Shown here one piece after another: positions 40,852 to 62,341 of a stretch of DNA of 64,000 bases. A program made the position numbers and the translations under genes. Source of the stretch: Sphingomonas sp. SUN039 (GTDB taxonomy: Bacteria > Pseudomonadota > Alphaproteobacteria > Sphingomonadales > Sphingomonadaceae); contig NZ_CP096972.1 in NCBI RefSeq assembly GCF_024758725.1, forward strand, positions 3,330,001 through 3,394,000. The letters run 5' to 3'. A model generated the notes under the pieces. The model saw only the letters and a list, made by a program, of their open reading frames with translations. It ran no database searches and was not told where the DNA came from. Within the stretch, counting starts at the first letter, position 1. Every line of letters begins with the position of its first letter.

Positions 40852-42405
40852 TCAGTCAAAAACGCGATGCGGTATGTTTTGCAGATTCGCATCGTTCAGC
40901 ATCAATGGCAGCAGATCGTCGGGAAAACCCTGGTAGCACACCGGGCGCAGGAAGCGCTCGATGGCGGCAGTGCCGACCGAAGTCGTCCGCGAATCGCTGG
41001 TGGCGGGGAACGGTCCGCCGTGGACCATCGCGCGGCTGACTTCGACGCCGGTCGGCCAGCCGTTGACGAGCAGCCGTCCGGCCTTGCGTTCGAGCAGCGG
41101 CACGAGCGCTGTCGCTGCTGCATGGTCTGCGGCGTCTATGTGCAGCGTTGCCGTCAGCTGTCCCTCCATCGCGCTCAGGCACGCTGCAACTTCCGCCATG
41201 TCGGCACACCGCACGATCAGCGATGACGGCCCGAACACCTCATCGGCGAGCGCCGGATCGGCGCGGAAGTCGGCCGCCGAAACGGCGAACAGTGCCGCGC
41301 TGCCGCCACACAAACCGGCTTCGCCGCCTTGTGCGACGCGCTGCACGCCGGCTCCGGCGGCAAGCGCGTTACTGCCTTCGCGAAAATTGGCTGCAATGCC
41401 TTTGGTCAGCATGGTCTGCGGCGCCACGACGCCGAGTGCGGCGGCGGCGGCGGTGGTGAAGCGATCGAGATCGGGGCCTTCGAGCGCAAAGACGATGCCG
41501 GGATTGGTGCAGAATTGTCCGGCACCGAGCGTCAGCGAACCCGCATATGCAGCGCCCAGCGCCTCGGCACGCGCGGCGAGGGCGGCAGGAAACAGGATGA
41601 CGGGGTTCACGCTCGACATTTCGGCATAGACCGGAATGGGTTCGGGGCGCGCTTGCGCGGCGGCGACCAGCGCCAGCCCGCCAAGACGCGAACCGGTAAA
41701 GCCGACCGCCTTGATCCGGGGGTCGGCAACCAAGGCGGCACCGAGGGCGTTACCCGGCCCCTGCACCAGCGAGAACACGCCCTCGGGCAGGCCGCACTCG
41801 ACCACGGCCTGCGCGATGGCTTCGGCGGCGAGCACCGATGTCCCCGGATGCGCCGGATGCGCTTTCACGACGACGGGGCACCCTGCCGCAAGCGCGGATG
41901 CGGTGTCGCCGCCCGCGACCGAGAAGGCGAGCGGGAAATTCGACGCGCCGAAAACGGCGACGGGGCCGACGGCGATGCGGCGCTGGCGCAGGTCGGGGCG
42001 CGGCAGCGGCTGGCGGTCGGGCAGGGGGCGGTCGCGCACGATGCCTGCCCAGTCGCCTTCGCGCACCAGCCGGGCGAACAGCCGGAGCTGGCCGGTGGTG
42101 CGCCCGAGTTCGCCCGTCAGCCGCACCTGCGGCAGCCCGCTTTCGGCCATGGCGCGGGTAATCAATCGGTCGCCGCGCGCTTCGAGCTGTGCGGCAATTG
42201 CGTCGAGAAAGGCACCGCGCACCTCAGGCGTTGTCTCGCGGAACGCATCGAAAGCGGCGTCGGCGAGGGTGCAGGCGTGCGCCAGATCGGCGGGCGGTGT
42301 TACTGCGAAATCGCCCTCGAGCGGCGTGCCGTCGGCCGCCGCCAGCGCCTTGAACACCTCGGTGCCGCCGATACGCGCCGATCCGATGAAATACCTGCCG
42401 TCCAT
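40852..42405 (-). CDS. 2,5-dioxopentanoate (alpha-ketoglutarate semialdehyde) dehydrogenase
   Basis: 517-residue NAD(P)-dependent aldehyde dehydrogenase that makes 2-oxoglutarate, last step of oxidative glucarate/galactarate breakdown. ATG 42405 is chosen for the GAGGA site upstream and the MDGRYFIG start. Motifs: VAVFGASNFPLAFSVAGGD, KAHPAHPGTS (typical of the KGSADH group), catalytic Glu in VYAEMSSVNPV and catalytic Cys in GQFCTNPG. C-terminal VLLPLML-like tail. It is the last gene of the gudD-kdgD block (53 bp from gudD), which fits its substrate. Confidence 0.9.
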   Translation of the reverse strand: MDGRYFIGSARIGGTEVFKALAAADGTPLEGDFAVTPPADLAHACTLADAAFDAFRETTPEVRGAFLDAIAAQLEARGDRLITRAMAESGLPQVRLTGELGRTTGQLRLFARLVREGDWAGIVRDRPLPDRQPLPRPDLRQRRIAVGPVAVFGASNFPLAFSVAGGDTASALAAGCPVVVKAHPAHPGTSVLAAEAIAQAVVECGLPEGVFSLVQGPGNALGAALVADPRIKAVGFTGSRLGGLALVAAAQARPEPIPVYAEMSSVNPVILFPAALAARAEALGAAYAGSLTLGAGQFCTNPGIVFALEGPDLDRFTTAAAAALGVVAPQTMLTKGIAANFREGSNALAAGAGVQRVAQGGEAGLCGGSAALFAVSAADFRADPALADEVFGPSSLIVRCADMAEVAACLSAMEGQLTATLHIDAADHAAATALVPLLERKAGRLLVNGWPTGVEVSRAMVHGGPFPATSDSRTTSVGTAAIERFLRPVCYQGFPDDLLPLMLNDANLQNIPHRVFD

Positions 42406-42458: not shown

Positions 42459-43787
42459 CTATCGCACCAGACAGGGACGTTTGGGGTCGAACTGCCAGTC
42501 GCGCACCAGAAACTGCATGCCCGTCGCATCGTCGCGCGCGCCGAGGCCGTGGTCCAGGTAAAGCCGGTGCGCGCGTTCGAGCGCGTCCTCGTCGAGGTCG
42601 AGGCCCAGGCCGGGGCGATCCGACAGCGCGACATGGCCGTCGACAATCTGCGGCGGAGCCTTGGTGAGGGTTTCGCCGTCCTGCCAGATCCAGTGGGTAT
42701 CGATCGCCGTGATCCGCCCGGGGGCCGCAGCGGCGCAATGCGTGAACATCGCCAGCGAAATGTCGAAATGGTTGTTCGAGTGCGAGCCCCAGGTCAGCCC
42801 CATCGTCCGGCACAGCTGCGCGACACGGACCGCCCCTTCCATCGTCCAGAAATGCGGGTCGGCCAGCGGGATGTCGACGGCCTGCAGCTGGACGGCATGG
42901 GCGAGTTGCCGCCAGTCGGTCGCGACCATGTTGGTCGCGGTCGGCAGGCCGGTCGCACGGCGGAACTCGGCCATGATCTCGCGACCCGAAAAGCCGTTCT
43001 CGGCCCCGCAGGGGTCCTCGGCATAGGCGAGCACGCCGGTCAGATCGCGGCCGATCCGCACGGCGTCGGCTAGGCTCCATGCGCCATTGGGATCGAGCGT
43101 AATGCGGGCGTCGGGAAAGGCACGCTTGAGCTCACGGACGGCCTTGGCTTCGTCATCGCCTGACAGCACGCCGCCCTTCAGCTTGAAGTCGCGAAAGCCA
43201 TAGCGGGCCTGTGCAGCGCGGGCGAGGTCGACGACCGCGTCGGGCGTCATCGTCGCTTCGTTGCGGCGGCGCAGCCAGACGTCGTCCGCACCGCTTTCAT
43301 CGCGATACGGCAGGTCGGTCGCGTGGCGGTCGGCGATGTAGAAAAGATAGCCGAGCATTTCGACGCGGTCGCGCTGACGGCCTTCGCCCAGCAAATCGGC
43401 AACCGCCTGTCCGGTGTGCCGCCCGAGCAGATCGAGCATCGCCGCCTCGATCGCGGTCTGCGCGTGGATGGTGGTTCTCAGGTCGAAGGTCTGCAGGCCA
43501 CGCCCCCCGGCATCGCGCGCCGCGAAACGGCCACCGACTTCGGCGATTGTCGCAGCATGGCTGCCGAGCGGCTTACCGATGACCAGAGGCTTCGCGTCTT
43601 CCAGCGTCTGCCGGATTGCTTCGCCGCCGGGCACTTCGCCGAGCCCGGTGTTGCCTGCGCTGTCGCTCAGCACGACGATGTTGCGGGTAAAAAACGGCGC
43701 ATGCGCGCCTGACAGGTTGAGCAGCATCGAATCGTGCCCGGCAACGGGCACGACGCGCATCGCCGTTACGACCGGCGCAGCGCTCAT
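42459..43787 (-). CDS. gudD: D-glucarate dehydratase
   Basis: 442-residue enolase-superfamily enzyme converting D-glucarate (and L-idarate) to 5-dehydro-4-deoxy-D-glucarate. Very close to E. coli GudD along its length: [42 protein letters not shown], the KxK base in [13 protein letters not shown], metal ligands in [12 protein letters not shown] and [18 protein letters not shown], and the His/Asp dyad in [20 protein letters not shown] 43787 overlaps the kdgD stop by 4 bp, so the two successive enzymes are translationally coupled. Confidence 0.97.
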
Positions 43788-44713
43788 GCGGCGACGGCGA
43801 GCGAACCGTTGACGCGCTCGATCAGCGCCGCCAGCTCGGCGCGTTCGCCGGGCTTCAGATCGGTCAACGGGCTGCGGACCGGACCTGCAGGCCGTCCGAT
43901 CGCGTCGCACCCGGCCTTGACGATCGACACCGCATAGCCGCTGCCCTGATTGCGCAGCGCGATATAGGGCAGCACGAAATCGTTGAGTTCGCGGACGATG
44001 GTCGCCTTGTCGCGCGCCCGTACCGCCTTGTAGAACCGCACCGCCCATTCGGGCATGAAGTTGAAGATCGCCGAGGAATAGGTGGTGACCCCCATTTCCA
44101 GATAGGCTGGGGCGAAGGTCTCCGCTGTGGGCAAGCCGCCGACATAGGTCAGCCGGTCGCCCATCTTGCAGTAAATCCGCATCATCAGTTCGATATCGCC
44201 GACGCCGTCCTTGAAACCCACGAGGTTGGGGTTGCGGTCGCACAGCCGCGCCAGCGTGTCTTCGTTGAGCACGGCATTGTCGCGGTTATAGACGATGACG
44301 CCGAGGTCGGTCGATTTGCAGACTGCCTCGACGTGCGCGGCAAGACCTTCCTGCCCGGGAGTCATCAGGTACATCGGCAGCAGCAGGATGCCATCGGCCC
44401 CGGCGTGCTCTGCCGAGCGGGCGAGGTCGCAGGCAATCGCGGTGCCATAGCCTGCGCCTGCGATCACCGGCACGCGGCCGGCGGTCTCGGCGACGGCGGC
44501 GCGTACGACCTGCTCGACTTCGGCCGGTGTCAGCGAGAAAAACTCGCCCGTGCCGCCTGCCGCGAACAGCCCGGCGACTTCGTAACTCAGCATCCACGCG
44601 CAATGCTTGCGGAACGCGGCCTCGTCGAAGCGCAACTCGCTGTCGAAATGCGTCACCGGGAACGAGAGCAGTCCTGCCCCGATCGTTTGCGCCATGGCTT
44701 GGGCACTCATCAT
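43784..44713 (-). CDS. kdgD: 5-dehydro-4-deoxyglucarate dehydratase
   Basis: 309-residue DapA-fold aldolase-superfamily enzyme that decarboxylates and dehydrates 5-keto-4-deoxyglucarate to 2,5-dioxopentanoate. Start: ATG 44713 is preferred because GGAG lies 8 bases upstream; a GTG at 44722 would sit too close to it. Motifs: [24 protein letters not shown], the phenolic Tyr in [12 protein letters not shown], and the Schiff-base Lys in [11 protein letters not shown]. Its product feeds the aldehyde dehydrogenase two genes downstream. Confidence 0.95.
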
Positions 44714-44825
44714 CTTCGTCACTCCGGGATGGGATATGTTGTCCTGCCGCTAGGGCGCGGGTCGGTGCAGGTCCAAGTCAAATGGCGTTTCGGTTCATGC
44801 CGGTTCGGCATCGCTCGCGTGCCGG

Positions 44826-46676
44826 TCATGCCCAGTCGGGAAATTGCAGCGTCGGTTTGCGACTGTAGCAACTCATCTCGAGCACGATCTGCGCGCCTGC
44901 ACCGGGACCGAGCCGCACGGTCAGGTCGCTGCCGCCCACCGCCGTGCGCCGGTCGCCGACAGTGGCGCTGACGATGCCGTGCTCGCCATAGCCGCCGCCG
45001 CGCACGATCAGGCGGCGCGGCGCGGCGGGGTCGAGGTTGACGATACTGAACTTCGTCGAGCGCGAATCCATCGCTTGGACCAGCACTGCGACATCGCTCG
45101 GCAGACCGGGCTGACGCCGGTCGGCATCGAAATGACGCAGCCGCGCGAACAGCGGTGTTCCGCCCTGTTCGGGCGACGTGTGCGTCGGCTCTGGGCGATG
45201 CGCGATAGGCAGCGCGCCCATCGTCTGGTGCAGCAACGCCTCGACCGATACCGGGTTCTTCTCGATGGCATTGTCGGCAAGGCGCGTCTGCGGCGTCGTG
45301 GTGTCGGCTGCGACGAGAGCCATCCGGTCACGCATCCGCCGCATGTCGGTCTGCAGCGCCGCTTCGGGCCAGTCGGGTGCGCGTCCGGCGAGGAACTCGG
45401 TCCAGGGCGTCGGCACCATTGCTGCCCGGTCGGCCTCGCGCATCGACATGTACCAGATTTCGCGCGTGTTGTGGCGATAGGGGCCGGGCTTGAAACTGTA
45501 CCAGCCCTCGGCCCCGTGCATCGTGGGCGACTGGCGGATCCCGTCGATCGTGCGACCGGCGTCGCTGATCCGCGCATTTTGCGTGCGCCACGGCTGCAAA
45601 TAGCGATCGTCGCCGGTCAACAGATAGGCGTTCATGAACCCGACCACCGCACGCGGCACGCGGTTGCGGTCCTCGCGCTTGCCGGTCTGCGGCACGACCG
45701 GCGAAAATCCCCAGCCATAGGTGCCGCCCCACCAGCGCCCGCCCGCCGCCGATCCGATGACGCCGTCGGGGCCGACGTTGCTGGGGATGACGCCGTCATT
45801 GGCGGCCATGCGCTGCGCCCAGGCGTCGACATAGTCGAACAACCAGCCACGAAACCGGTCCTCGCCGGTCAGCAACCACGCGTTGAGCGCGAGCGACGTC
45901 GCCTGCAAGTTGAGCGGGTTGTCGCCGATTGTCTCGGTATATTCGCGATAGTGGTCGAGGAATTGCGCGTATGTATTCTCGCCATGCTCGAGCTTGAACG
46001 GCGCGGCGTCGAACGGGTCGCCCGCCCAGTCGAGCGCAGTCGCCGGGCGCATCAGCGGCCCCAGACTGCCGTTGATCAGCGACGGGATCAGCCGCCGCGC
46101 CGGGTCGTAGTTGCGCGCGACCGGATCGCGCCCGGTGTAGAAATCGGCAAACCGCCGCGCGCGCATGGCGAGCTTGGCATCGCGCGGCGTCGACAGCCCC
46201 ATCAGGTTGAACGTCGTCAACCCCTCGCTGATGTGCTGCCAGTCCATCTGCGTCGGGAATTCGCGAACGTACATACCCTTGCGGCCCGCCGGGACATCGG
46301 TGGTGCGGATACGCGAATATTGCGCGAAATGCGCCTCCTGCACGCCGCGATAGAGCCGCAAAATTTCGGGATCGCCGCCGATGATGTGAAGTAGCGGCCA
46401 GTCGTTGACATGCTCGACGGCATCGTCGGGTCCGTCGTTCGCGCCCCAGCGCAGGAAAGCTTCGAGCCGATGCTCTTTATCGAAATAGCGGTCGTGGAAT
46501 GTGCGCGCGGCGGGCACCTGCATCGCGATCAGCTCGCGTTGCAACTTCGCCCAGCGCGGCGGGGCCATGGGTGTCGCAATGTCGAGCTGCGGTCGCGCTG
46601 CGCGGGGGGCGGCGGGCAGCGACGCCGCGACCAGCGATAATCCTGTGCTCCCAAGGAACTGGCGGCGACTGGTCAT
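44826..46676 (-). CDS. Tat-exported 616-residue protein of unknown function
   Basis: Twin-arginine signal SRRQFLGSTGLSLVAASLP, then a long helical region with repeated Trp/Tyr/His-rich segments (FLRWGANDGPDDAVEHVNDW, EFPTQMDWQHISEGLTTFNL, LALNAWLLTGEDRFRGWLFDY, FMNAYLLTGDDRYLQPW). These repeats look like the helix pairs of an (alpha/alpha) toroid, as in many polysaccharide lyases and glycoside hydrolases. A beta C-terminal domain (about 500-616) follows. I cannot assign a family. It overlaps the UxuA-like gene by 4 bp (ATGA), so the two exported proteins are coupled and probably work on the same uronic-acid-containing substrate. That link is inference. Confidence 0.85.
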   Translation of the reverse strand: MTSRRQFLGSTGLSLVAASLPAAPRAARPQLDIATPMAPPRWAKLQRELIAMQVPAARTFHDRYFDKEHRLEAFLRWGANDGPDDAVEHVNDWPLLHIIGGDPEILRLYRGVQEAHFAQYSRIRTTDVPAGRKGMYVREFPTQMDWQHISEGLTTFNLMGLSTPRDAKLAMRARRFADFYTGRDPVARNYDPARRLIPSLINGSLGPLMRPATALDWAGDPFDAAPFKLEHGENTYAQFLDHYREYTETIGDNPLNLQATSLALNAWLLTGEDRFRGWLFDYVDAWAQRMAANDGVIPSNVGPDGVIGSAAGGRWWGGTYGWGFSPVVPQTGKREDRNRVPRAVVGFMNAYLLTGDDRYLQPWRTQNARISDAGRTIDGIRQSPTMHGAEGWYSFKPGPYRHNTREIWYMSMREADRAAMVPTPWTEFLAGRAPDWPEAALQTDMRRMRDRMALVAADTTTPQTRLADNAIEKNPVSVEALLHQTMGALPIAHRPEPTHTSPEQGGTPLFARLRHFDADRRQPGLPSDVAVLVQAMDSRSTKFSIVNLDPAAPRRLIVRGGGYGEHGIVSATVGDRRTAVGGSDLTVRLGPGAGAQIVLEMSCYSRKPTLQFPDWA

Positions 46677-47797
46677 GCGGCGGGCAATGCGTGCGCGGCG
46701 GCCTGCATCAGCCCGCGGATATGGCCATAGGCAAAAGCGAAGCTCTGCATTGCGGCTTCGGGCTTGCCGGGCACGTCGGGGACATGATCGGGCATCAGCA
46801 TCCCGTCGTAGCCGACCTCGTGATAGGTCATCAGCGCGCGGTACATGTCGATATCGCCTTCGTCGGGGAAGGCTTCGCGGAACTTGCCGCGTCCGCCGAC
46901 GATGTTGCGGAAATGGACGTTGAAGATTTTGCCGCGGCTGCCGAACCAGCGGATGGTATCGAAAATCTGCGTCTTCGGGTCGGGCAGGTTCTCGCTGACA
47001 GTCCCCTGACAGAAATTCAGCCCGTGATAGCGGCTCTCGCGTATCCCGACGAAGCGCTTGAGCCCGTCGATCGTGCCGAGCACGCGGTGGACACCTTGAT
47101 ATCCTTGCGGCGGCGTACCCGGATCGTGCGGATGGCAGGCGAGGCGGACCTTATACTCGTTGGCGACCGGCACGACGCGGTCGAGGAAATAGGCGATTCG
47201 TTCCCAGAACGCGTCCGCGCTGACGGGACCGGCCCGGGTCAGCGGTTTGTCGAGCGTGGCCGTCGCTGCATCCCATGCCCCGAATTCGGCATCGCCGCGG
47301 CCTTGGACGTGCCCCGTCCGCAGCACGCCGAGGATGCTCATATTATATTTGATGCACGGAATGCCGACGGCGGCGCAGTTGCGGATCAGCGTCTGGAACT
47401 GTTCGATGTCGCGGTCGCGCTGCGGGCTATCGGCCATCATGATCGCCGGGTTCGCTTCGCGGTCGATGTGCGACGAAGGCAGCATCACGGGGTCGAGGAT
47501 GTCGAGCGACAGCTTGTGGCGGATCGCCATGTCCTTGAGCGCAGCCAGTTCCGCAACCGTCGAGGCGAGCCGCCCGTCGGACACCTTGGCCCGTGCGGCG
47601 ATGTTGGTGACGCCGTATCGTGCGAAAAACGCGAAACGGTCGTCGGTGGAGGGTCCGCTCTGGCAGCCCAGCTTCATCCGCAACGGACCTCGCGCCGCAT
47701 GCGGTCGCGGGGGTGCAGCGCTCGCCGAAGCGACCGCTCCTGCACCGGCCAGCGTTGCGCCGAGGCCGATGCCGCCCAAGAAATCGCGCCGATCCAT
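46673..47797 (-). CDS. Mannonate dehydratase-like (UxuA family) TIM-barrel protein with Tat signal
   Basis: 374 residues from ATG 47797, chosen for GGGAGA about 8 bases upstream (an ATG at 47815 lacks a site). The N-terminus has MDRRDFLGGIGLGATLAGAG, a twin-arginine signal not found in cytoplasmic E. coli UxuA. The UxuA-like metal/catalytic motifs are present: RLACHPHDPGTPP, KIFNVHFRNIVGG, DEGDIDMYRAL and GMLMPDHVPDVPG. Conventional UxuA converts D-mannonate to 2-keto-3-deoxygluconate. Export would place this one in the periplasm, so the true substrate may differ. Coupled to the unknown 616-residue protein. Confidence 0.85.
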   Translation of the reverse strand: MDRRDFLGGIGLGATLAGAGAVASASAAPPRPHAARGPLRMKLGCQSGPSTDDRFAFFARYGVTNIAARAKVSDGRLASTVAELAALKDMAIRHKLSLDILDPVMLPSSHIDREANPAIMMADSPQRDRDIEQFQTLIRNCAAVGIPCIKYNMSILGVLRTGHVQGRGDAEFGAWDAATATLDKPLTRAGPVSADAFWERIAYFLDRVVPVANEYKVRLACHPHDPGTPPQGYQGVHRVLGTIDGLKRFVGIRESRYHGLNFCQGTVSENLPDPKTQIFDTIRWFGSRGKIFNVHFRNIVGGRGKFREAFPDEGDIDMYRALMTYHEVGYDGMLMPDHVPDVPGKPEAAMQSFAFAYGHIRGLMQAAAHALPAA

Positions 47798-47886
47798 CGC
47801 CGTCTCCCTTGTCATTATCGGGACAGGCTAACGCCAAACGGGGAGAGGCCGCCAATCGCGACACGCAATCGTTCGATACCGGCTGG

Positions 47887-48768
47887 CTATCCGTTCACCG
47901 CGTCGAGATGGCGCAGCAGTTCGCCCAGCGCGGGGTTGTCGTTCTCGCGCCGCCACGCCGCATGGAGCTCGACGATGGGGTCGGCATCCTCCAGCTCGCT
48001 GAACACGACGTCCTCGGGGTGGAGGCGGGCCGAAGACTCAGGGACGAGCGCAAAGCCCTGTCCGGCGCCGACCAGCATCAGGATCGAATGGATCTGCGCG
48101 AGATACTGGACCAGTCGTGGTTCGGCGCGCGCACTCGCCAGCAACCCGGTGATCAGGTCGTGGAAATAGCGCGCCTTGTCGGGCGCGTACATGATCAGGG
48201 GCAGGCCATCGAAATCGGCAAGGCGTCGCGGGCGGTCGGCGGCGGGGACGGAGCTGTGCGAGCAGACGATGAAGCGTTCGCGCAGCACGCGCCGCGACTC
48301 GAGTTCCGGCCGCCGCACGGGCGGACGCAGCAGCCCGAAGTCGATACGCCCCGACAACAGGCTTTCGAGCTGCTCGCCGGTGACCATCTCCTTCAGCAGG
48401 AACCGCACATCGGGCAGTTCGGCCTGCACGCGTCCGATCAGGCGCGGCAGGAAACTATAGCCCGATGCGGCGGTGAAGCCGAGCGTGACCATGCCGAGCT
48501 GCCCTTCGGCGGCGGCGCGCGCAGTGGCGACCGCGCTGTCGGTCATTTCCACAATGCGCGTCGCTTCGGCCAGGAACGCCGCGCCTGCCGCCGTCAGCTT
48601 TACCGAACGGCTCGACCGCCGGAACAGCTCGACGCGCAAGATACGCTCGAGTACCTGGATGTGGCGGCTGAGCGGCGGCTGGGTCATGTTCAGCCGTCCG
48701 GCAGCGCGGCCGAAATGCAGTTCCTCGGCAACGGCTACGAAACAGCGTAGCTGGATCAGCTCGAACAT
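47887..48768 (-). CDS. LysR family transcriptional regulator
   Basis: 293 residues. The N-terminal winged HTH is IQLRCFVAVAEELHFGRAAGRLNMTQPPLSRHIQVLE, followed by RSVKLTAAGAAFL and the effector-binding domain (about 90-290, GMVTLGFTAASGYSFLPRLIG). The HFGRAAxxLxMTQPPLS pattern belongs to the CbbR/BenM-like subgroup. As the only regulator inside the sugar-acid cluster it probably controls the flanking dehydratase genes with an aldarate-derived ligand. It is 27 bp downstream of the GlucD-like gene, an atypical non-divergent position. Confidence 0.92.
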   Translation of the reverse strand: MFELIQLRCFVAVAEELHFGRAAGRLNMTQPPLSRHIQVLERILRVELFRRSSRSVKLTAAGAAFLAEATRIVEMTDSAVATARAAAEGQLGMVTLGFTAASGYSFLPRLIGRVQAELPDVRFLLKEMVTGEQLESLLSGRIDFGLLRPPVRRPELESRRVLRERFIVCSHSSVPAADRPRRLADFDGLPLIMYAPDKARYFHDLITGLLASARAEPRLVQYLAQIHSILMLVGAGQGFALVPESSARLHPEDVVFSELEDADPIVELHAAWRRENDNPALGELLRHLDAVNG

Positions 48769-48795: not shown

Positions 48796-50070
48796 TCAGT
48801 AGCGTGGTTTCGCCGCACTGAAAGCAGGATCGTATTTGCGCATCTGGCCCCCGTCGTCGCGGCTGCGGATGGCGATGCGGTTGAACGTGGCATGGGCACG
48901 CGCCAGCCGGTCGCGGTCGAGCGTCACGCCGAGCCCCGGGCTATCGCCGACCGCGATACAGCCGTTGGAGAATGCGATCTTGCCGCCGGTGACGACTTCG
49001 TCGGCGTCCTCGACCCATGGATAATGTGTGTCGCAGGCATAGGTCAGGTCGGGCGTCGCCGCTGCCAAATGGCTCATCGCCATCAGGCTGATGCCGAGGT
49101 GCGAGTTGGAATGCATCGACAGACCCAGACCGAATGTGCGGCACATCGCTGCCAGATGCTGGCTCGCGCGCAAGCCGCCCCAGTAATGATGGTCCGACAG
49201 CACGATCTGGACCGCGTCGATGGAAACGCTGCGCCGCAGCTGGTCGAAATCGGTCACTACCATGTTCGTTGCGAGCGGCAGGCCCGTGCGCCGGTGGAGT
49301 TCGGCCATTGCATCGAGCCCGTCGACCGGGTCTTCATAATATTCGATCAGCGGGCCGAGTTCCTCGGCACACGCCAGCGCGGTTTCCATCGACCAGGCAC
49401 CATTGGGATCGATGCGAAGCGGCAAGCCGGGAAAGGCTTTGGCCAGCGCGACGATGCTCGCCACTTCGGTCGCCGGGGGCAATGTTCCGGCCTTCAGCTT
49501 GATGCTGCCGAAACCATGTGCGGCAATCATCCGCTGCGCCTGTTCGACGATCTGTGCCGGTGTGACCGCTTCGCCCCAGTCGTCGGGGGTTTCTTCCGTC
49601 TCGACATGCCGGGCGTATTTGAAAAACAGATAGGCGCTGAACGGCACCTCGCGTCGCACGGCGCCGCCGAGCAGCGCATGCAGCGGCACTCGGGCATGCT
49701 GCGCCTGCAGGTCGAGCAGCGCGACCTCCAAGGCCGAAACGCTGTTCGCGATCAGCTTGGCCGGATGCGATCCGGGTGCAAGTTCGGCCCCGGGCGCGGC
49801 TTGCGGCAAGCCGGCGACGGCCTGTTCGACCAAGCGGACCAGGCCGTTGAGATCGAAGATATCGAGGCCCGGCAGCAGCTGCGCGACCGCTTCGAATGCT
49901 GTCAGCGCAGGGGCATCGCCATAGCTTTCGCCGAGCCCGACCAGCCCCTCCCCGGTTTCGACCTCGATAATCGAGCGCAGCGCATAAGGCTCATGGATGC
50001 CGGCCGCGTTCAGCAGCGGCGGGTCGCGGAACGCGATCGGCGTGACGCGAACCCGGGTAATGCTTGGCAC
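48796..50070 (-). CDS. Enolase-superfamily acid-sugar dehydratase (glucarate dehydratase-like)
   Basis: 424 residues with the glucarate-dehydratase-like pattern: RVTPIAFRDPPLLNAAGIHEPY at the N-terminal capping domain, the base in FGSIKLKAGTLPP (KxK), metal ligands in LRIDPNGAWSMET and IEYYEDPVDGLDAM, and the dyad in GLGLSMHSNSHLGISLMAM. It differs from the GudD at 42459 in lacking the [10 protein letters not shown] capping loop and having a longer 80s loop, so its acid-sugar substrate probably differs. Divergent from the talarate-type dehydratase with 162 bp between starts. Confidence 0.88.
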   Translation of the reverse strand: MPSITRVRVTPIAFRDPPLLNAAGIHEPYALRSIIEVETGEGLVGLGESYGDAPALTAFEAVAQLLPGLDIFDLNGLVRLVEQAVAGLPQAAPGAELAPGSHPAKLIANSVSALEVALLDLQAQHARVPLHALLGGAVRREVPFSAYLFFKYARHVETEETPDDWGEAVTPAQIVEQAQRMIAAHGFGSIKLKAGTLPPATEVASIVALAKAFPGLPLRIDPNGAWSMETALACAEELGPLIEYYEDPVDGLDAMAELHRRTGLPLATNMVVTDFDQLRRSVSIDAVQIVLSDHHYWGGLRASQHLAAMCRTFGLGLSMHSNSHLGISLMAMSHLAAATPDLTYACDTHYPWVEDADEVVTGGKIAFSNGCIAVGDSPGLGVTLDRDRLARAHATFNRIAIRSRDDGGQMRKYDPAFSAAKPRY

Positions 50071-50232
50071 TTGCTTCCCCCTTTTCGCTGACTTCTATCG
50101 CTGGCTTCGATACCCGAATGACAGGGTCTGACCCCGGCATCAATGCGGAATGCCTATCGTTCGATGCTATCGCCTTGCTTGATCGGGGGCGTGCCGTTGC
50201 TAGGCGGAGCGGGTCGAATAAAGGAGCGGACC

Positions 50233-51381
50233 ATGTCAGCCGACCGTATCGCCGAAGTCCGGATCAGCCTCGCTTTCCTGCCGCTCGCGCAGCCGATCAG
50301 CGACGCAAAGGTGCTGACCGGACGGCAGAAGCCGCTGACGCAGGTCGCGATGCTATTTGCCGAAATCACTACAGTCGACGGGCACGAAGGTATGGGCTTC
50401 AGCTATTCCAAGCGCGCAGGCGGTCCCGGCATGTACGCCCATGCCCGCGAGATCGGGCCGGACCTGGTCGGCGAAGACCCCAGTGATATTGCGCGACTGT
50501 GGACCAAACTCGTCTGGGCCGGAGCGTCGGTCGGCCGGTCGGGCCTGTCGGTACAGGCGATTGCGGCGTTCGACAATGCGCTCTGGGATTTGAAGGCAAA
50601 ACGGGCAGGGCTAAGTCTCGCCAAGCTGCTCGGTGCGCAGCGTGACGGCGTACCCTGTTACAATACTTCAGGGGGGTTTCTGTCGAGCCCTATCGACGAA
50701 GTGCTCGACAATGTCGAGGCCTCGATCGCGAGCGGAATCGGCGGCATCAAGATCAAGGTCGGCCATCCCGATGCGAAAGTCGACCTCGCGCGGCTCGAAG
50801 CGGTTGCCAGGCGGATCGATGGGCGGGTCGCGCTGATGGTCGATGCCAACCAGCAATGGGACCGGGCGAGCGCACTCCGCATGGGCCGCGCGATGGAGCA
50901 ATACGGGCTGGTGTGGATCGAGGAGCCGCTCGACGCCTATGATGTCGAGGGCCATGCCGCACTGGCTGCGGCACTCGATACGCCGGTCGCCTCGGGCGAG
51001 ATGCTCGTCTGCGCGGCCGAGCATTTCGCGATGATTCGCAGCAACGCCGTCGATTTCATCCAGCCCGATGCGGCGCGCGTCGGCGGGATCACCCAGTTCC
51101 AGCGGGTAACCGCCATGGCGCAGGAGGCGCAGCTCGCGCTCGCGCCGCATTTCGCGATGGAACTGCACCTCCATCTGTCGGCAGCCTATCCGCATGCGGC
51201 ATGGGTGGAACATTTCGACTGGCTCGACCCGCTGTTCAACGAGCGGCAGATGATCGTGGATGGCAGGATGGTCGTCAGCGAACGGCCGGGTCTCGGCGTC
51301 AGCCTGAGCGGCCAGGCACGGGCGTGGACCGTCCAGTCTTGCAGCATCGATAGCACAGGAACGCGCGACAGCGTCCATTGA
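50233..51381 (+). CDS. Mandelate-racemase-family dehydratase, L-talarate/galactarate dehydratase type
   Basis: 382 residues from ATG 50233 with AAGGAG seven bases upstream. Capping domain RISLAFLPLAQPISDAKVLTG-like block, the KxK bases in GIGGIKIKVGHPD, metal ligands in ALMVDANQQWD, LVWIEEPLDAYD and ASGEMLVCAAEHF, and the His base in LALAPHFAMELHLHLSAAYP. This combination resembles the Salmonella L-talarate/galactarate dehydratase, which makes 5-keto-4-deoxyglucarate, the substrate of KdgD. So galactarate could enter the same downstream route. Followed 109 bp later by the TonB receptor. Confidence 0.85.
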   Translation: MSADRIAEVRISLAFLPLAQPISDAKVLTGRQKPLTQVAMLFAEITTVDGHEGMGFSYSKRAGGPGMYAHAREIGPDLVGEDPSDIARLWTKLVWAGASVGRSGLSVQAIAAFDNALWDLKAKRAGLSLAKLLGAQRDGVPCYNTSGGFLSSPIDEVLDNVEASIASGIGGIKIKVGHPDAKVDLARLEAVARRIDGRVALMVDANQQWDRASALRMGRAMEQYGLVWIEEPLDAYDVEGHAALAAALDTPVASGEMLVCAAEHFAMIRSNAVDFIQPDAARVGGITQFQRVTAMAQEAQLALAPHFAMELHLHLSAAYPHAAWVEHFDWLDPLFNERQMIVDGRMVVSERPGLGVSLSGQARAWTVQSCSIDSTGTRDSVH

Positions 51382-51490
51382 TACCCGCTACGGATTGGTC
51401 GATTGCCGCTGTGCATTGGACGCCGATGCGGTCCTGCGAGCAAAGCATCCTCAAACAGGCCCTAGTGGGCCGCAGGACCTTGGGGAGGTT

Positions 51491-54328
51491 ATGATGTCGA
51501 CACGGGCCGCCGTTCGAATTGCCTTGTTGTGCGGAGCGGGCGTAGTCGCCAGCCTGCCGGGTCACGCTTTGGCTCAATCGGCACCAGCGCCCGCCGAGGA
51601 GGCGGCACCGGCTGCCCCCGAAATCATCGTCACCGGCACCCGCGTGAAGCGCGACGGCTATGACGCGCCGACACCGCTGACGGTGGTCGGCGAGGAGGCG
51701 ATCCGTAAGGCCGCGCCCACCAATATCGCCGATTTCGTCAATCAGCTGCCGCAGCTCGTCGGCAGCACGACGCCGCGTACGACCGCCGGCACAACCAGCC
51801 AGAGCGTTGCCGGCCTGAACCTGTTGTCGCTGCGCGGTCTGGGTTCCAACCGTACGCTCGTCCTGCTCGACGGCCAGCGCATTGCGCCATCGACGCAGGA
51901 CGGGTCGGTCGACGTCAACAATGTTCCCTCGGCGCTGCTCTCGCGGGTCGATGTAGTCACCGGCGGCGCCTCGGCAGCCTATGGGTCGGACGCGGTCGCC
52001 GGTGTCGTCAACTTCATCATCGACGGCAAGTTCGAAGGTCTCAAGGCCAATCTGATGGCCGGGATCACCGACCGCGGCGACAACAAAAACTACCAGCTGA
52101 GCGCGGCATTCGGTGCCTCGTTCGCCGACGGTCGCGGCCATATCCTGGTGTCAGGCGAGCATCAGCATGAAGACGGCATCGACATTCTCGATCCCGCCAC
52201 CCGCAACTGGTACAACTACACCTACCTCGTGCCGAACCCGGCCTATACGGCGACCAACGGCCAGCCGCTGCAGATTGTCACGAGCAACGTATATTACAGC
52301 TTGCTGGCGCAAGGCGGGCTGATTCTGAACACCGCGCTGCGCGGGCGGACCTTCGGCAGCGCCGGCACGCCGCGCACGTTCAACTATGGCACGCTGACCG
52401 TCAATTCCGCGATCACCAGCAGCAATTTCATGATCGGCGGCGACGTCTGGAACGAGGGCAATGTCGTCGCGCTCACACCGCGCATCGACCGCGACAATCT
52501 GTGGGGCCGGTTCAGTTACGACTTTTCCGACCTGTTCAAGCTGTCGCTGGAAGGGTCCTACGGTCGCACGCACACGATCAACAGCGCGGCCTATCAGCGC
52601 TACGCCAATGCCGCAGCGCCCTTTGCAGCGCTGTCGTTCAGCAACCCGTTCCTGCCCGCCAGTGTGCGGACACAGGCGGCCGGGCTGGGACTCGCCAACT
52701 CGACCTTCCGCTACGGCTATTCGGCGTTCGATCTGGGGCGGCCGGTCAACGACAATACGCGCCAAACCTATCGCTTCGTCGGGACGCTGTCGGGCGAATT
52801 CGCCCCCGGCTGGTCGTACAACGCCTATTACCAGTACGGGCGCACGGATCTCGAAATCAATCTGAAGAATACCACCAATCGCGCCAACATCACCCTCGCT
52901 GTCGATGCCGTCACCAATGGCAACGGCCAGATCGTCTGCCGCTCGACGCTGACCAACCCGACCAACGGCTGCGTGCCGCTCAACGTTTTCGGTATCGGCG
53001 TGGCGAGCCCTGCCGCGATCGCCTATGTGCAGGGCACGGCGTGGCAGACGCAGCAGATCACGCAGCAGGTGGCGGCGCTCGCGATCAACGGCGAACCCTT
53101 CCACACCTGGGCCGGGCCGGTGTCGCTCGCCATGGGCATCGAACAGCGCACCGAGCGCGCCGACGCGGTCGGTGACACGATCTCGCTCGCCAACGGCTGG
53201 TACAACGGCAATTTCAAGACCAACTCGGGCAGCTACCGCGTCCAGGAAGGCTTTGCCGAAGTCGTCGTGCCGCTGGCTCGCGACTCGTTCCTCGGCGACC
53301 GCCTCGACTTCAATGGCGCCGTGCGCGTCACGAAGTATAGCACGGCGGGCACTGTCACGACCTGGAAGGCCGGTCTGACCTACCAGCCGATCCCCGACCT
53401 GATGTTCCGTGCGGTCAAGTCGCGTGACATTCGCGCGCCCAGCATCACAGAGCTGTACGCGGCGGGGTCGTCGCAATCGGTCGACGTCGTCGATCCGCAA
53501 CGCGGCGGCATCGTTACCCGTGTCGTGCAGGTGACCGACGGCAACACCGCGCTGACGCCCGAAAAGGCCGATACGCTCGGACTCGGCGTGGTGGTGAAAC
53601 CGCGCTTCCTGCCCGGCTTCACCGCATCGTTCGACTATTACAACATCCGTCTCAACGACGCGATCACGGCCCTGTCGCCGAATGAAATTGCCGCGCGGTG
53701 CTTTGCCGGCGAAACCGTACTATGCGGCTTCATCCAGCGCGACACGGCGGGTGTCATCACGCAAATCCGGCGCGTGCCGGTCAACGTCGCCAATCTGCGC
53801 GTGCGCGGTTTCGATATCGACGCGACCTACCGGCTGCCCTTGTCCGAAATCTTTGCCAAGGCGGGTGGCACGCTGACGCTGCGCTTCCTCGCCAGCCGGG
53901 CGCTCAACTATGCCTTCACCAACAGCGGCGTGACCAATGAAGCGGTCGGCGAGAATGGCGGACCGCAGGCAAGCCCCGCCGTGCCGCGCTGGCGCACCTA
54001 CAGCACGCTCGGCTATGACGATGCGCGCTCGACGTTCCAGCTGACGATGCGGACGATCAGTTCGGGCGTTTATGACGTCAACTGGAAGAGCGGCGTCGAT
54101 ATCGACAACAACTATATCGCGGCCGTGAAATATTTCGATCTCGCAGGCAGCTATCGCCTGTTCGGCGAGCCCCGCAAGGGTGTCGAAGCCTATTTCCGTG
54201 TCGATAACCTCTTCGACCAGGCACCGCCGGTCGTCGGAGGCAACAACGCGAGCGCCATACAGACCAACGTCGGCCTGTATGACACGATCGGTCGCGCCTA
54301 TCGCATCGGCGTGCGGGTCCGTTATTGA
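51491..54328 (+). CDS. TonB-dependent receptor
   Basis: About 945 residues. ATGs at 51491 and 51494 follow GGGGAGG; the second has the better spacing. Signal peptide (RIALLCGAGVVASLPGHALA), then an Ala/Pro/Glu linker and the TonB box/plug start PEIIVTGTRVKRDGYD. The plug (about 60-180) has LNLLSLRGLGSNRTLVLLDGQR and SRVDVVTGGASAAYGSDAVAGVVNFI. The rest is a 22-strand barrel ending RIGVRVRY with a terminal aromatic. The position in the sugar-acid cluster next to the carrier suggests uptake of a sugar-acid oligomer or glycoconjugate; the ligand is not known. Confidence 0.94.
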   Translation: MMSTRAAVRIALLCGAGVVASLPGHALAQSAPAPAEEAAPAAPEIIVTGTRVKRDGYDAPTPLTVVGEEAIRKAAPTNIADFVNQLPQLVGSTTPRTTAGTTSQSVAGLNLLSLRGLGSNRTLVLLDGQRIAPSTQDGSVDVNNVPSALLSRVDVVTGGASAAYGSDAVAGVVNFIIDGKFEGLKANLMAGITDRGDNKNYQLSAAFGASFADGRGHILVSGEHQHEDGIDILDPATRNWYNYTYLVPNPAYTATNGQPLQIVTSNVYYSLLAQGGLILNTALRGRTFGSAGTPRTFNYGTLTVNSAITSSNFMIGGDVWNEGNVVALTPRIDRDNLWGRFSYDFSDLFKLSLEGSYGRTHTINSAAYQRYANAAAPFAALSFSNPFLPASVRTQAAGLGLANSTFRYGYSAFDLGRPVNDNTRQTYRFVGTLSGEFAPGWSYNAYYQYGRTDLEINLKNTTNRANITLAVDAVTNGNGQIVCRSTLTNPTNGCVPLNVFGIGVASPAAIAYVQGTAWQTQQITQQVAALAINGEPFHTWAGPVSLAMGIEQRTERADAVGDTISLANGWYNGNFKTNSGSYRVQEGFAEVVVPLARDSFLGDRLDFNGAVRVTKYSTAGTVTTWKAGLTYQPIPDLMFRAVKSRDIRAPSITELYAAGSSQSVDVVDPQRGGIVTRVVQVTDGNTALTPEKADTLGLGVVVKPRFLPGFTASFDYYNIRLNDAITALSPNEIAARCFAGETVLCGFIQRDTAGVITQIRRVPVNVANLRVRGFDIDATYRLPLSEIFAKAGGTLTLRFLASRALNYAFTNSGVTNEAVGENGGPQASPAVPRWRTYSTLGYDDARSTFQLTMRTISSGVYDVNWKSGVDIDNNYIAAVKYFDLAGSYRLFGEPRKGVEAYFRVDNLFDQAPPVVGGNNASAIQTNVGLYDTIGRAYRIGVRVRY

Positions 54329-54359
54329 TCGTCTAACGCATGCTTCCGGGAGAGAGACG

Positions 54360-55673
54360 ATGACGGAAGCGACACGAGCGGGGCGGGTCCGCTGGACCGT
54401 GCTGGCGATGCTGTTTGCCGTGACGGTGATCAACTATGCCGACCGCGCAACGCTGTCCCTGGCCGCCCCCTTCCTGTCGAAGGATCTGGGCATCGACAAG
54501 CTTCAGCTGGGGATTGTGTTCTCCGCCTTCGGCTGGTCCTATGTCGTCGCGCAAATCCCGGGCGGATGGCTGCTCGACCGCTATGGTGCCCGGCGTGTCT
54601 ATTTCGCGGCGATCGCGTTATGGTCGCTGTTCACCGCGATGCAGGGCGGCGTGGTGTGGCTGAGCGGCGCGACGGCGATCTCCGCGCTGTTTGCCTTCCG
54701 CTTTCTCGTCGGATTTGCCGAGGCACCGTCGTTTCCGGGCAATGCGCGGCTGGTTGCGGCGTGGTTCCCCGCCAAGGAGCGCGGCACGGCATCGGCCATC
54801 TTCAATGCCGCGCAATATTTCGCGACCGTCCTGTTCGCGCCGATCATGGGCCTGATTATTGCCGGATTCGGCTGGCCCTGGGTGTTCGTGTTCATGGGCG
54901 CGTTGGGGATGATCGCATCGGCGGTGTGGCTCAAGGTCATCTTCGAACCGCGCCGCCATCCCCGGCTGGGGCAGGCCGAACTGGCGTTGATCGCCGAGGG
55001 CGGTGCGCTGGTCGATCCGGTCGAACCGACAGCCAAGGTTCCCGACGGCGACATGCGGCGCAAGCTCGGCATCCTGCTCGGCACCCGCACCTTGTGGGGC
55101 CTCTACCTCGGACAGTTTTTTATCAACACATTGACCTACTTCTTCATCACCTGGTTCCCCGTCTATCTCGTCGAGGAGCGCGGGTTGTCGGTGGTCAAGG
55201 CAGGCCTGTTCGCCACCGTTCCGGCGCTGTGCGGCTTTGCGGGCGGCGTGCTCGGCGGCATCTTCTCCGACTGGCTGTTGCGCAGGGGCGCGACGCTCAC
55301 GATCGCACGCAAGGTGCCGGTGGTGGCGGGGATGCTGCTCGCGCTGGCGATCCTCGGCTGCAACTATGTCGACTCGAACCTGATGATCCTGCTGTTCATG
55401 AGCCTCGCGTTTTTCGGCAAGGGGATCGGCGCGCTCGGCTGGGCAGTGATGTCCGACGTCGCGCCGCGCGATTGCGCAGGGCTGAGCGGTGGCATCTTCA
55501 ACATGTTCGGCAATATTTCGTCGATCGTCACGCCGATCGTGATCGGGCTGATCCTTAAGCAAACCGGCTCGTTCGATCTGGTATTGTCGCTGGTGGCCGC
55601 CTCGGCGCTCGCCGCCGCGCTCAGCTATCTGTTCGTGGTCGGCAAGATCGGCCGGCTGGGCGAACCAGCCTAA
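54360..55673 (+). CDS. MFS transporter, anion:cation symporter family (GudP-like)
   Basis: 437-residue inner-membrane symporter. ATG 54360 with GGGAGAGAG upstream, 31 bp after the TonB receptor stop. Helix 1 carries TVINYADRATLSLAAPFLSKDLG, close to the NYVDRATLS motif of the glucarate/galactarate carriers GudP/GarP. Other marks are GGWLLDRYGARRVY (motif A) and GFAEAPSFPGNARLVAAWFP. It likely takes the dehydratase substrates across the inner membrane after the TonB receptor passes them through the outer membrane. Confidence 0.88.
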   Translation: MTEATRAGRVRWTVLAMLFAVTVINYADRATLSLAAPFLSKDLGIDKLQLGIVFSAFGWSYVVAQIPGGWLLDRYGARRVYFAAIALWSLFTAMQGGVVWLSGATAISALFAFRFLVGFAEAPSFPGNARLVAAWFPAKERGTASAIFNAAQYFATVLFAPIMGLIIAGFGWPWVFVFMGALGMIASAVWLKVIFEPRRHPRLGQAELALIAEGGALVDPVEPTAKVPDGDMRRKLGILLGTRTLWGLYLGQFFINTLTYFFITWFPVYLVEERGLSVVKAGLFATVPALCGFAGGVLGGIFSDWLLRRGATLTIARKVPVVAGMLLALAILGCNYVDSNLMILLFMSLAFFGKGIGALGWAVMSDVAPRDCAGLSGGIFNMFGNISSIVTPIVIGLILKQTGSFDLVLSLVAASALAAALSYLFVVGKIGRLGEPA

Positions 55674-56704
55674 TCCGACGCCTTGCCCATACGCGCGAGC
55701 TGGACGCGCGAGCATCCGCTCATCACCTGCATATAACGCTGGTAGCGCGCGGCCCCATAGACATAGGGATGACGCCCGCCGGTCGCGCCGTAGCGGATCA
55801 GAGCCTGCTTCTCGTTCGCCGCCATATGGACCGGGTGGTTGGTCACCAGCACATCGACGCCGGTGGCCTTGGTCAGGGCCTGCCAGCGCGCCAGCGAAAC
55901 GAGCTGCTGGCGCACCGAAGCTTCGTCCTGCCCGCCGCCGGTGCCGCCCATCAGGCCTGCCATATGGCGGACGCCCTTGTCGAACACCGGGAACAGCAGC
56001 GACAAGACGCCGGGCGTATGGCCGGGCGTGACGTAAAGCCGGATGCTCGTGCCACCGAGCGCAACCGTGTCGCCGTCCTTGGCGACGATGTCACGCTTCG
56101 GGGGAACCAGCCCCGCGAATGGCCCGCCACCGCGCTGTGGACTTTCCATCATCCGCCAGTCGGCTTCGGACGCCACGATCTTGGCGCCATAGATGTCCTG
56201 CAGATACTTCGCCCCGCCCCAGTGATCACCGTGTCCGTGGGTGATCAGCACATAGCGGATGCGCTTGGGATCGAGCCCCAACTTGACCAAATTCGGCACG
56301 ATGATCTCGCGCGCCTCGGCCTCGTTGTTGAGCGCATCGATCAGGATGATCCCCTCGGGCGTATCGAGGGCAAAGGCGGACACCGCATTCTGGCCGACCG
56401 AATAGAAATTGTCGAAGATTTTGGTCGCGGGTACCAGCCCGTCGTGCTGCACGCCGAACACCAGCTGGCGGTCGAGCGGACTGACCAGGCAGCGCCAGTT
56501 GAAATCGGCTTCGAGGTCGGCCCCCGCGATCTGCCGTGTCGCCGCCAGATGCCGCGCCACGCTCTTGGCGTCCTCCTGCGGGAAGTTGTTCTGGGCGGGA
56601 TAGGTTGCCGGTCCGCTCTCCTTCGCCTGGCCGTTCGCCATCGCCGGACCGAGGACGGCCAATGCGGCCAGCAGGGACATCCGGTGTGTCGTACGCATTG
56701 GCAT
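55670..56704 (-). CDS. Exported metallo-beta-lactamase-fold hydrolase, subclass B3-like
   Basis: 344 residues from ATG 56704 (GAGGAGG upstream). Signal peptide (MSLLAALAVLGPAMANGQA). Zn ligands: YVLITHGHGDHWGG (HxHxDH), YVTPGHTPGVLS (His196 equivalent) and VTNHPVHMAA (His263 equivalent), the B3 set. The pre-active-site FDNFYSVGQNAVSAFAL is also B3-like. Antibiotic hydrolysis is not implied; many such environmental homologues are uncharacterised, and a lactonase role on sugar-acid lactones is possible given the neighbours. Convergent with the GudP-like gene, 4-bp stop overlap. Confidence 0.87.
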   Translation of the reverse strand: MPMRTTHRMSLLAALAVLGPAMANGQAKESGPATYPAQNNFPQEDAKSVARHLAATRQIAGADLEADFNWRCLVSPLDRQLVFGVQHDGLVPATKIFDNFYSVGQNAVSAFALDTPEGIILIDALNNEAEAREIIVPNLVKLGLDPKRIRYVLITHGHGDHWGGAKYLQDIYGAKIVASEADWRMMESPQRGGGPFAGLVPPKRDIVAKDGDTVALGGTSIRLYVTPGHTPGVLSLLFPVFDKGVRHMAGLMGGTGGGQDEASVRQQLVSLARWQALTKATGVDVLVTNHPVHMAANEKQALIRYGATGGRHPYVYGAARYQRYMQVMSGCSRVQLARMGKASD

Positions 56705-56902: not shown

Positions 56903-57664
56903 ATGATTCGACCTTTTCCTGTCCGGCACTGTCATCGAACCCTCCCGCGCGCGGTCGGTGGCAGTGCGGCTGTCGATCCTGTGTCGTTCGGTGTCGATGG
57001 AATCGACGCGCGCATCGGTGGCGGCTTGAGGCAAAGCGCATTGCATGAGGTTTTTGCCGCATCGGCTGCAGACGGCAGCGCCGCTGCGGGCTTTGCGGTC
57101 ATGATTGCCATGCGGGCCAGTGTTTCCGGCCGTCCGGTCATCTGGGTGCGCGAACAGCGTTGTGGGCCCCATAGCGGACACCTTTATGCTGCCGGTCTTG
57201 TCGAATTGGGGTTCGATCCCGACGATCTCATTTTGATCGAGGCACCCGATGTGCGGGCCGTGCTTCGCGCCGGGGCGGACATCGTCAAATGCCGACAGGT
57301 CGGCGCGGTCGTTATCGAACCCAGGGGAAAGGCACCGCTGCTCGACCTGACAGCCTCGCGCAGGCTTTCGATGGCGGCGGCGGTATCCGGCGTGCTGACA
57401 TTGGTGCTGCGCGTCGATGCCGAGCCTGCACCCAGTGCCGCCCAAACGCGGTGGCAGGTGGCAGCGGCCCCTTCTTCGCCGCTTGCTGCCAATGCCCCCG
57501 GTGCACCCGCTTTCGATATCGCCCTGCTGCGCCACCGCGGCGGCATTGCCGGGTTCGAGGCCCGTCTGGAGTGGAACCGTGATACAAGAAGCTTCACGCC
57601 GCTATCTGGCGGTGTTCCTGCCGTTCCTGCCGTCGGAGCGGATCAAGCGCGAAAAGCCGCCTGA
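56903..57664 (+). CDS. imuA: SOS mutasome protein ImuA
   Basis: 253-residue RecA-like protein, part of the ImuA-ImuB-DnaE2 translesion system behind damage-induced mutagenesis. N-terminal VSFGVDGIDARIGGGLRQSALHEVFA is the family start, and WVREQRCGPHSGHLYAAGLVELGFDPDDLILIEA follows; the C-terminus has FDIALLRHRGGIAGFEARLEWNRDTRSF. No complete Walker A is seen, as usual for ImuA. ATG 56903 lies 2 bp from the LexA box. The imuB start lies 86 bp inside its 3' end. Confidence 0.93.
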   Translation: MIRPFPVRHCHRTLPRAVGGSAAVDPVSFGVDGIDARIGGGLRQSALHEVFAASAADGSAAAGFAVMIAMRASVSGRPVIWVREQRCGPHSGHLYAAGLVELGFDPDDLILIEAPDVRAVLRAGADIVKCRQVGAVVIEPRGKAPLLDLTASRRLSMAAAVSGVLTLVLRVDAEPAPSAAQTRWQVAAAPSSPLAANAPGAPAFDIALLRHRGGIAGFEARLEWNRDTRSFTPLSGGVPAVPAVGADQARKAA

Positions 57665-62000: not shown

Positions 62001-62341
62001 AACGCCCGGGCAAAGGCAACGCAATCTTCGTGACCATCGAGGACGAAACCGGCGTCACCAACATCGTCATCTGGGCGCGGTTGTTCGAAACATTGCGGCG
62101 CGAAGTGATGGCCGCGCGCCTGATGCTGGTCGAGGGTGAAGTACAGCATAGTCCCGAAGGCGTCGTCCATCTGATGGCGACCAAGATCCAAGACCGCACG
62201 GCGGCGTTGCGGTACCTGTCCGAGGCGCATGACGCGAATCCCTCGATGTCGCGCTCCGACGCGTTTCTGCATCCGCAATACCCCCGCCACGGCCATCCCC
62301 GCGATGTGCGTATTTTGCCGAAATCGCGGGATTTTCACTGA
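59087..62341 (+). CDS. dnaE2: Error-prone DNA polymerase DnaE2
   Basis: 1084-residue C-family polymerase used for lesion bypass under SOS conditions. PHP domain at the N-terminus (FAELAAATNFSFLEGASHP). Palm motifs include LCQGRGSAANSVVCF and the metal-binding RNEPPDIDVDFEHERREEV. The tail of the fingers has GMDKFQEKLVGGMVARGY. The OB domain (RQRPGKGNAIFVTIEDETG) and the terminal PKSRDFH are typical of DnaE2. It lacks DnaE1's long C-terminal extension. ATG overlaps the imuB stop by 4 bp. The operon is complete; the 150 bp after it contain no gene. Confidence 0.97.
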   Translation: MSGFAELAAATNFSFLEGASHPHEMVTEAFALGHGGIGIADRNTVAGVVRAHVALRDLRAAGHAKDFRLVVGARLSFADNTPDIIAYPTDRRAWGRLCRLLSLGNLRATKGACQLFFDDLLEWGEGMVLIVLPGASRLCRIDRLGVVLRLRQLVGDNLWIGATMHRSGGDRRRLAALQSLSGEAGIPLLALNAPLFATPADRPLQDVMTCIREKAKLADVGRKLAANAERHLKHAREMVRLFADAPDALAQTSALLDRIDFTLDDLRYEYPHEPVPPGWTPMGWLIRLTMRAARDRHERTRLPKKLRAMLREEFGLIRDQNYAYYFLTVHDLVRFAREQEPPILCQGRGSAANSVVCFMLGITSVDPVSHNLLFSRFVSADRNEPPDIDVDFEHERREEVMQYVYRRYGRHRAGIAATIAHYRPRSAVREVGKALGMTEDVTARLVSTVWGSHASTMDGKRIAETGFDLDNPEIARLNMLVGRLLGFPRHLGQHVGGFVLTHDRLDETVPVHNAAMPDRTFIEWDKDDIDALGLMKVDVLALGMLTCIRKSYDLMRQHGLGDHTLEVDLDSSDPAVYDMLCKGDSIGVFQVESRAQINMLPRLKPKNLYDLTVQVAIVRPGPIQGDMVHPYLRRRSGIEKAEFPSPKPPHDPDELRTLLGKTYGVPLFQEQAMKLAIVAADFTPSEANKLRRAMATFRHVGGMDKFQEKLVGGMVARGYERAFAERCYKQIEGFGSYGFPESHALSFARLVYVSSWIKCHHPAVFACALLNSQPMGFYAPAQIVRDAQEHAVEVRTIDVNASLWDNGLEFSEGPDMPALRLGLRQIDGFREEWANRVVLGRPYDSVETLARRACLPARALRLLADADALGSLDLGRRAGGWDVRRTHSDVLPLFAAADARELGEEPAFTLPEMPAGEEVAADYQTIRLSLKGHPMAFLRDGFAAENVLSCAQTSAARNGARVKTAGIVLVRQRPGKGNAIFVTIEDETGVTNIVIWARLFETLRREVMAARLMLVEGEVQHSPEGVVHLMATKIQDRTAALRYLSEAHDANPSMSRSDAFLHPQYPRHGHPRDVRILPKSRDFH

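Follow-up and report, generated by a model that had tools for sequence, protein, structure and literature searches.

Background

The polysaccharide lyases and exo-lyases of PL15, PL17 and PL38 have a toroid architecture and occur in uronic-acid loci, and a toroid combined with a beta sandwich is a frequent arrangement among lyases. As far as we are aware, sugar-acid dehydration has been described only in the cytoplasm. Uronic acids themselves are degraded in the Agrobacterium-type oxidative hexuronate pathway by Udh, KdgD and a semialdehyde dehydrogenase (PMC6353982). We analyzed a stretch of 64,000 nucleotides from Sphingomonas sp. SUN039 (hereafter the window), in which two overlapping genes with Tat-type starts lie within a cluster of aldarate genes. 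The first encodes a protein of 616 residues (P616), the second a protein of the UxuA family (UxuA-like). Our preferred reading, which we consider roughly an even call, is that P616 represents a family of (alpha/alpha)-toroid carbohydrate-active enzymes of pectin and uronic-acid loci that would release monomers from chain ends in the periplasm, and that the UxuA-like protein is a module of its own.

Gene content of the locus

Both genes are encoded on the minus strand, P616 at 44826..46676 (616 aa) and the UxuA-like TIM barrel (PF03786) at 46673..47815 (380 aa), and the ends of the two ORFs share the four bases ATGA, as the first-pass annotation of this DNA had described. Position 47797 is the second ATG of the UxuA-like gene (MDRRDFLGG), a few codons past the first one at 47815. 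The Tat model TIGR01409 scores the UxuA-like protein at 17.6 bits (cut-off 16.7), which upholds, as a prediction, the earlier view that this protein is exported although its family is normally cytoplasmic. P616 begins with MTSRRQFLG, and RR starts were seen again among its homologues.

The nearby TonB receptor and acid-sugar genes that had been pointed out are indeed present, and a sugar-acid transporter, KdgD and the glucarate and talarate/galactarate dehydratases were confirmed as well. On the minus strand, KdgD (5-dehydro-4-deoxyglucarate dehydratase, 43784..44722) reaches 438.7 bits with TIGR03249 (cut-off 373.95) and a glucarate dehydratase-like protein (42459..43787) 802 bits with TIGR03247 (cut-off 828.7), while the aldehyde dehydrogenase at 40852..42405 is probably a ketoglutarate semialdehyde dehydrogenase, given its position after KdgD. 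The same strand carries a LysR-type regulator (47887..48768) and a divergent glucarate-dehydratase-like protein of the enolase superfamily (48796..50070; 268 bits vs. a cut-off of 829), which is kept in the cluster and probably has a function other than that of GlucD. Three genes follow on the plus strand: an L-talarate/galactarate dehydratase (50143..51381; NF047820 655 bits, cut-off 500), a TonB-dependent receptor (51395..54328) of a type that differs from the receptor beside P616 in other genomes, and an MFS transporter of the D-galactonate transporter subfamily (54180..55673; TIGR00893 455 bits, cut-off 395), homologous to the MFS gene located immediately ahead of P616 in other genomes. 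A hydrolase of the metallo-beta-lactamase fold with an apparent signal peptide (55670..56704, minus strand) resembles subclass B3, scores far under the NCBIfam cut-offs, and is kept in the aldarate cluster of genome G215, where it adjoins P616, and of Novosphingobium; it is possibly an aldarolactone lactonase. Udh was not identified within the window. Downstream of the cluster, at 56903-62341, the translations read as an apparent imuA-imuB-dnaE2 mutagenesis cassette.

Sequence family and distribution of P616

P616 had been called unrecognised, and neither the single protein nor a profile of 48 members gave a significant match in Pfam, NCBIfam or the PDB sequences. Membership in a known sequence family was rejected after phmmer, a search with the profile and Pfam scans of all 48 homologues had yielded no significant match, and matches to CHASE3 (E 0.028) and a NorC-like model (E 0.58) were discarded as chance. 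The GH88/GH105 profile PF07470 left P616 unmatched and hit one of the 48 relatives at E 0.014. In the literature on exported mannonate dehydratases, haloarchaeal pectin loci and Caulobacter glucuronan lyases, searched with most subscription papers out of scope, the family is undescribed.

From GTDB genomes we retrieved 57 P616 loci (44-68% identity), mostly from sphingomonads and Caulobacteraceae, with additional ones from Steroidobacter-type bacteria and one Spirochaetia bin. One of them, L048, is a typical sphingomonad locus, yet its record bears the title Bacillus sp. 2B10, and the assembly is probably contaminated or mislabelled. Among 298 genomes from the order, 5 carried P616, and the family is rare, since a phylum-wide sample of 398 genomes contained it in the window genome alone. 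Plasmid records of haloarchaea, Streptomyces and Nonomuraea yielded further relatives, about 30% identical across 86-94% of the protein and annotated as 'hypothetical protein' wherever the gene is listed. In the wide alignment the haloarchaeal proteins begin at about query residue 27 and therefore have no signal peptide.

Conserved neighbours and the association with the UxuA-like gene

Over the 57 loci, homologues of the window's MFS transporter recurred in 55, the LysR regulator and a TonB receptor in 53 each, and KdgD in 52; a type-B carboxylesterase was present in 40. The UxuA-like gene was found within ~10 kb of P616 in none. In the 15 loci with a script-placed Tat start, the MFS stop lies -4 to +15 bp from the start of P616. 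The conserved partner of P616 is thus the MFS sugar-acid transporter, not the UxuA-like protein.

These counts bear on the idea that P616 and the exported UxuA-like protein work together as the two enzymes of a periplasmic pathway dedicated to uronic oligomers, which the first-pass annotation had proposed and which we now consider improbable. The 4-bp overlap in the same orientation speaks for it, and so does the recurrence of both genes in one locus in two further genomes, G215 (9-10 kb apart) and G948 (~2.2 kb apart), which belongs to another family and has a PQQ dehydrogenase and a GMC oxidoreductase next to the two genes. A Tat-UxuA of at least 68% identity is also more frequent among the proteobacterial P616 genomes (4/49) than in the sample of the order (2/298; p ~0.004, uncorrected for kinship). 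However, 45 of these 49 genomes have no UxuA-like match at E 1e-25, and the UxuA cluster is conserved in the absence of P616: three Novosphingobium clusters (L104, L142, L144) encode Tat-UxuA relatives (63-72%) and resemble the window's cluster in their MBL-fold protein, MFS, TalrD/GalrD, GlucD2, LysR and UxuA and, mostly, GlucD1 and KdgD, but contain no P616. The genomes of L142 and L144 carry P616 at other loci (L035, L042), without the UxuA-like gene, and another Novosphingobium genome (L057) has both P616 and Tat-UxuA. With no UxuA-like gene in any of the 57 loci and a UxuA cluster kept without P616, the two proteins as a functional unit are unsupported. Of the expected co-occurrence, what stands is that the association recurs in G215 and G948 and is thus not unique to the window genome; it is rare, confined to these three among the genomes found, and no rule, and the overlap in the window is a local arrangement. 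At L128 (4919-13506), P616, a PQQ dehydrogenase, Tat-UxuA and a GMC oxidoreductase stand together, a grouping that suggests periplasmic sugar oxidation beside P616 and Tat-UxuA.

The UxuA-like protein

Pfam places the UxuA-like protein in PF03786 (139.3 bits vs. a gathering cut-off of 23.7), whereas both NCBIfam mannonate-dehydratase cut-offs are missed (76.5 vs. 199.55 and 108.7 vs. 191 bits). The claim of intact catalytic motifs holds in part. H228, C269, H301 and D343 align with the solved enzymes of S. suis and E. faecalis, in positions that we take to bind manganese in the S. suis enzyme, and these four putative metal ligands are invariant in 14 relatives; RPDHGR, however, reads MPDHVP, so that PDH is kept while the preceding Arg and the following GR are changed, and GLYDR is not conserved. 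With the D-mannonate dehydratase UxuA it therefore shares PF03786, the TIM barrel and the putative His/Cys/His/Asp ligands, and it differs by the predicted Tat signal, the scores below the NCBIfam cut-offs, the loss of RPDHGR and GLYDR and the location in an aldarate cluster. Judging by its sequence, it is probably a metal-dependent sugar-acid enzyme with a substrate other than that of mannonate dehydratase. Tat starts are also predicted on relatives from Novosphingobium, Caulobacter, G215 and G948, and rhizobial relatives of about 50% identity are without one.

One explanation, compatible with the preferred reading of P616 and a serious contender though short of an even chance, is that the protein acts as a periplasmic aldarate or aldonate dehydratase or isomerase of the glucarate/galactarate cluster and is functionally unrelated to P616. 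It is kept beside LysR, glucarate dehydratases, KdgD, TalrD/GalrD and MFS, its rhizobial relative in Sinorhizobium adjoins kdgD, and the putative metal ligands are invariant. Against this, the product chemistry is a guess and the substrate putative.

Predicted fold and invariant residues of P616

An AlphaFold (AF2) model built from the 48 homologues reached a pLDDT of 88.8 and a pTM of 0.88; a single-sequence model (pLDDT 32.8) was discarded. P616 is predicted to be helical up to about residue 486 and to carry a beta domain at 513-602, i.e., a toroid plus a beta sandwich. The best structural neighbours in VIA-align 2 were GH76, the GH88 unsaturated glucuronyl hydrolase, GH47, GH105 and 2-epimerases (Z 12.5-14.8, rmsd ~5), matches close to the level that this tool gives for unrelated helical proteins. 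GH76 occupied the top rows (Z 14.8, 282 residues, rmsd 5.2, ~9-12% identity), and GH88 (1vd5; Z 14.4, 304 residues, rmsd 5.4) was tied with other toroid families. In Foldseek, cellobiose 2-epimerases and GH127 took the first ranks, at TM-scores that were low (0.2-0.3). PL15, PL17 and PL38 were absent from the structural-search rows, an absence that excludes nothing. The alpha/alpha toroid guessed from the helical repeats agrees with the model and its neighbours, and these matches would identify P616 as a toroid carbohydrate enzyme and nothing more specific.

From haloarchaea to sphingomonads, the wide alignment keeps D81, D84, D85, E88, D145, H148, E151, N189, Y190, D252, N256, Y282, R289, Y320, D356, D416, D517, E565 and H566 invariant. 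D84-D85 are a putative counterpart of the adjacent catalytic Asp pair of GH76, and the invariant His/Tyr candidates are H148, Y180, Y190, Y282, Y320 and H566.

The Foldseek ranking, with cellobiose 2-epimerases and a sugar epimerase among its lowest E-values, together with weak C5-epimerase Pfam matches in 6 of the 48 members (best E 0.027), could indicate that P616 does not cleave chains and acts on sugars as an isomerase or as a 2- or 5-epimerase. We regard this as quite unlikely: the TM-scores are low, the Pfam matches fall under any cut-off, and the wide alignment retains one invariant barrel histidine (H148), where known 2-epimerases use two.

Pectin and uronate context

Pectate lyases are encoded near the haloarchaeal P616 genes of Haloterrigena turkmenica, Halopiger, Halosolutus, Halostagnicola and Halomontanus, and GH28 near those of Haladaptatus halobius and Halomontanus. 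Other haloarchaeal neighbours are GH4, glucuronate isomerase (uxaC), enolase-family dehydratases and DHDPS-family proteins, and some neighbourhoods are without a pectin enzyme. Among the bacterial loci, L005 combines GH28, UxaC and a fructuronate-reductase-like (UxuB-like) gene, L001 has a pectin-acetylesterase-like gene, GH43 also occurs, and L049 has KduI, PL22 and GH88/105-like genes. At this last locus PL22 and the GH88/105-like protein already cover the breakdown of oligogalacturonate, which counts against our preferred reading. The GH88/105-like domain there (L049:18131-20371) is fused with DUF4861 and adjoins PL22 and KduI.

Of the 23 sphingomonad genomes with P616, 12 contained GH28, vs. 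10 among 200 genomes drawn from the family (Fisher p ~2e-8, uncorrected for kinship and with some P616 genomes in the sample of 200), an enrichment that may come from shared ancestry. The window genome gave one KduI/IolB-family match, and searches for GH28, the PF00544 pectate lyase and GH88/105 found none there, so that pectin need not be the substrate of its P616.

Proposed function of P616

Returning to P616 as an end-acting toroid enzyme, short uronic-acid oligosaccharides would enter through the TonB receptor, P616 would act at the chain ends and free an acid-sugar monomer in the periplasm, the MFS sugar-acid transporter would import it, and KdgD and the semialdehyde dehydrogenase would take it on to 2-oxoglutarate. 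The UxuA-like protein would be a separate exported TIM-barrel enzyme of the glucarate/galactarate cluster which in this lineage now sits in the P616 operon. Proteobacterial P616 combines a Tat start with an MFS importer, and several haloarchaeal copies, which have no signal peptide, lie near ABC importers, so that P616 seems to be placed where short oligomers arrive: exported where MFS transporters would import monomers, cytosolic where ABC systems would import oligomers. We infer the substrate, the end-wise action, which may be hydrolysis or beta-elimination, and the order of the steps; judging from genomic context, P616 may plausibly act on uronic oligomers.

The variant in which P616 is a periplasmic lyase, whose unsaturated or 4-deoxy-5-keto products reach KdgD after oxidation, is one that we entertain only tentatively. 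It would account for KdgD in 52 of the 57 loci while a talarate/galactarate dehydratase scores over its cut-off in one of 30 P616 genomes, and a toroid with a beta sandwich would suit a lyase. Yet the KdgD substrate can also be reached via glucarate dehydratase or uronate dehydrogenase, so the KdgD count is compatible with the lyase route and no proof of it; a catalytic His/Tyr pair was not identified in P616, and not all haloarchaeal loci have a KdgD-like gene.

The end-acting toroid enzyme that we favour would be a candidate for a missing step in the use of uronic acids by Caulobacter, sphingomonads and haloarchaea, and a periplasmic enzyme conserved together with an MFS monomer importer makes a directly testable model.

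Comparison with known systems

P616, an unannotated family that spans two domains of life and is tied to pectin and sugar-acid loci, could well qualify as a new CAZy family. A more far-reaching proposal, which we offer as speculative, is that P616 founds a new family, of glycoside hydrolases or of lyases, which extends over Proteobacteria, Spirochaetes, Actinomycetes and haloarchaea and in which a periplasmic or cytosolic location goes with the kind of importer, and that a Tat-UxuA branch dehydrates sugar acids in the periplasm; if true, this branch would mean that sugar acids are also dehydrated outside the cytoplasm.

The unsaturated uronyl hydrolases of GH88/GH105 may resemble P616 in the predicted (alpha/alpha) toroid, and do so in the pectin/uronate loci and the small oligosaccharides that are plausible as its substrates, but P616 has no PF07470 match and a predicted extra C-terminal beta sandwich, and at L049 a separate GH88/105-like gene is present. 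The GH76 alpha-1,6-mannanases, structurally the top rows, differ in genomic context and share no sequence match, and P616 is likewise without a sequence match to the toroid lyases and exo-lyases of PL15, PL17 and PL38. With the Agrobacterium-type pathway (PMC6353982) the window has the end steps in common, i.e., KdgD and the aldehyde dehydrogenase, whereas its entry step would consist of P616, the TonB receptor and exported enzymes.
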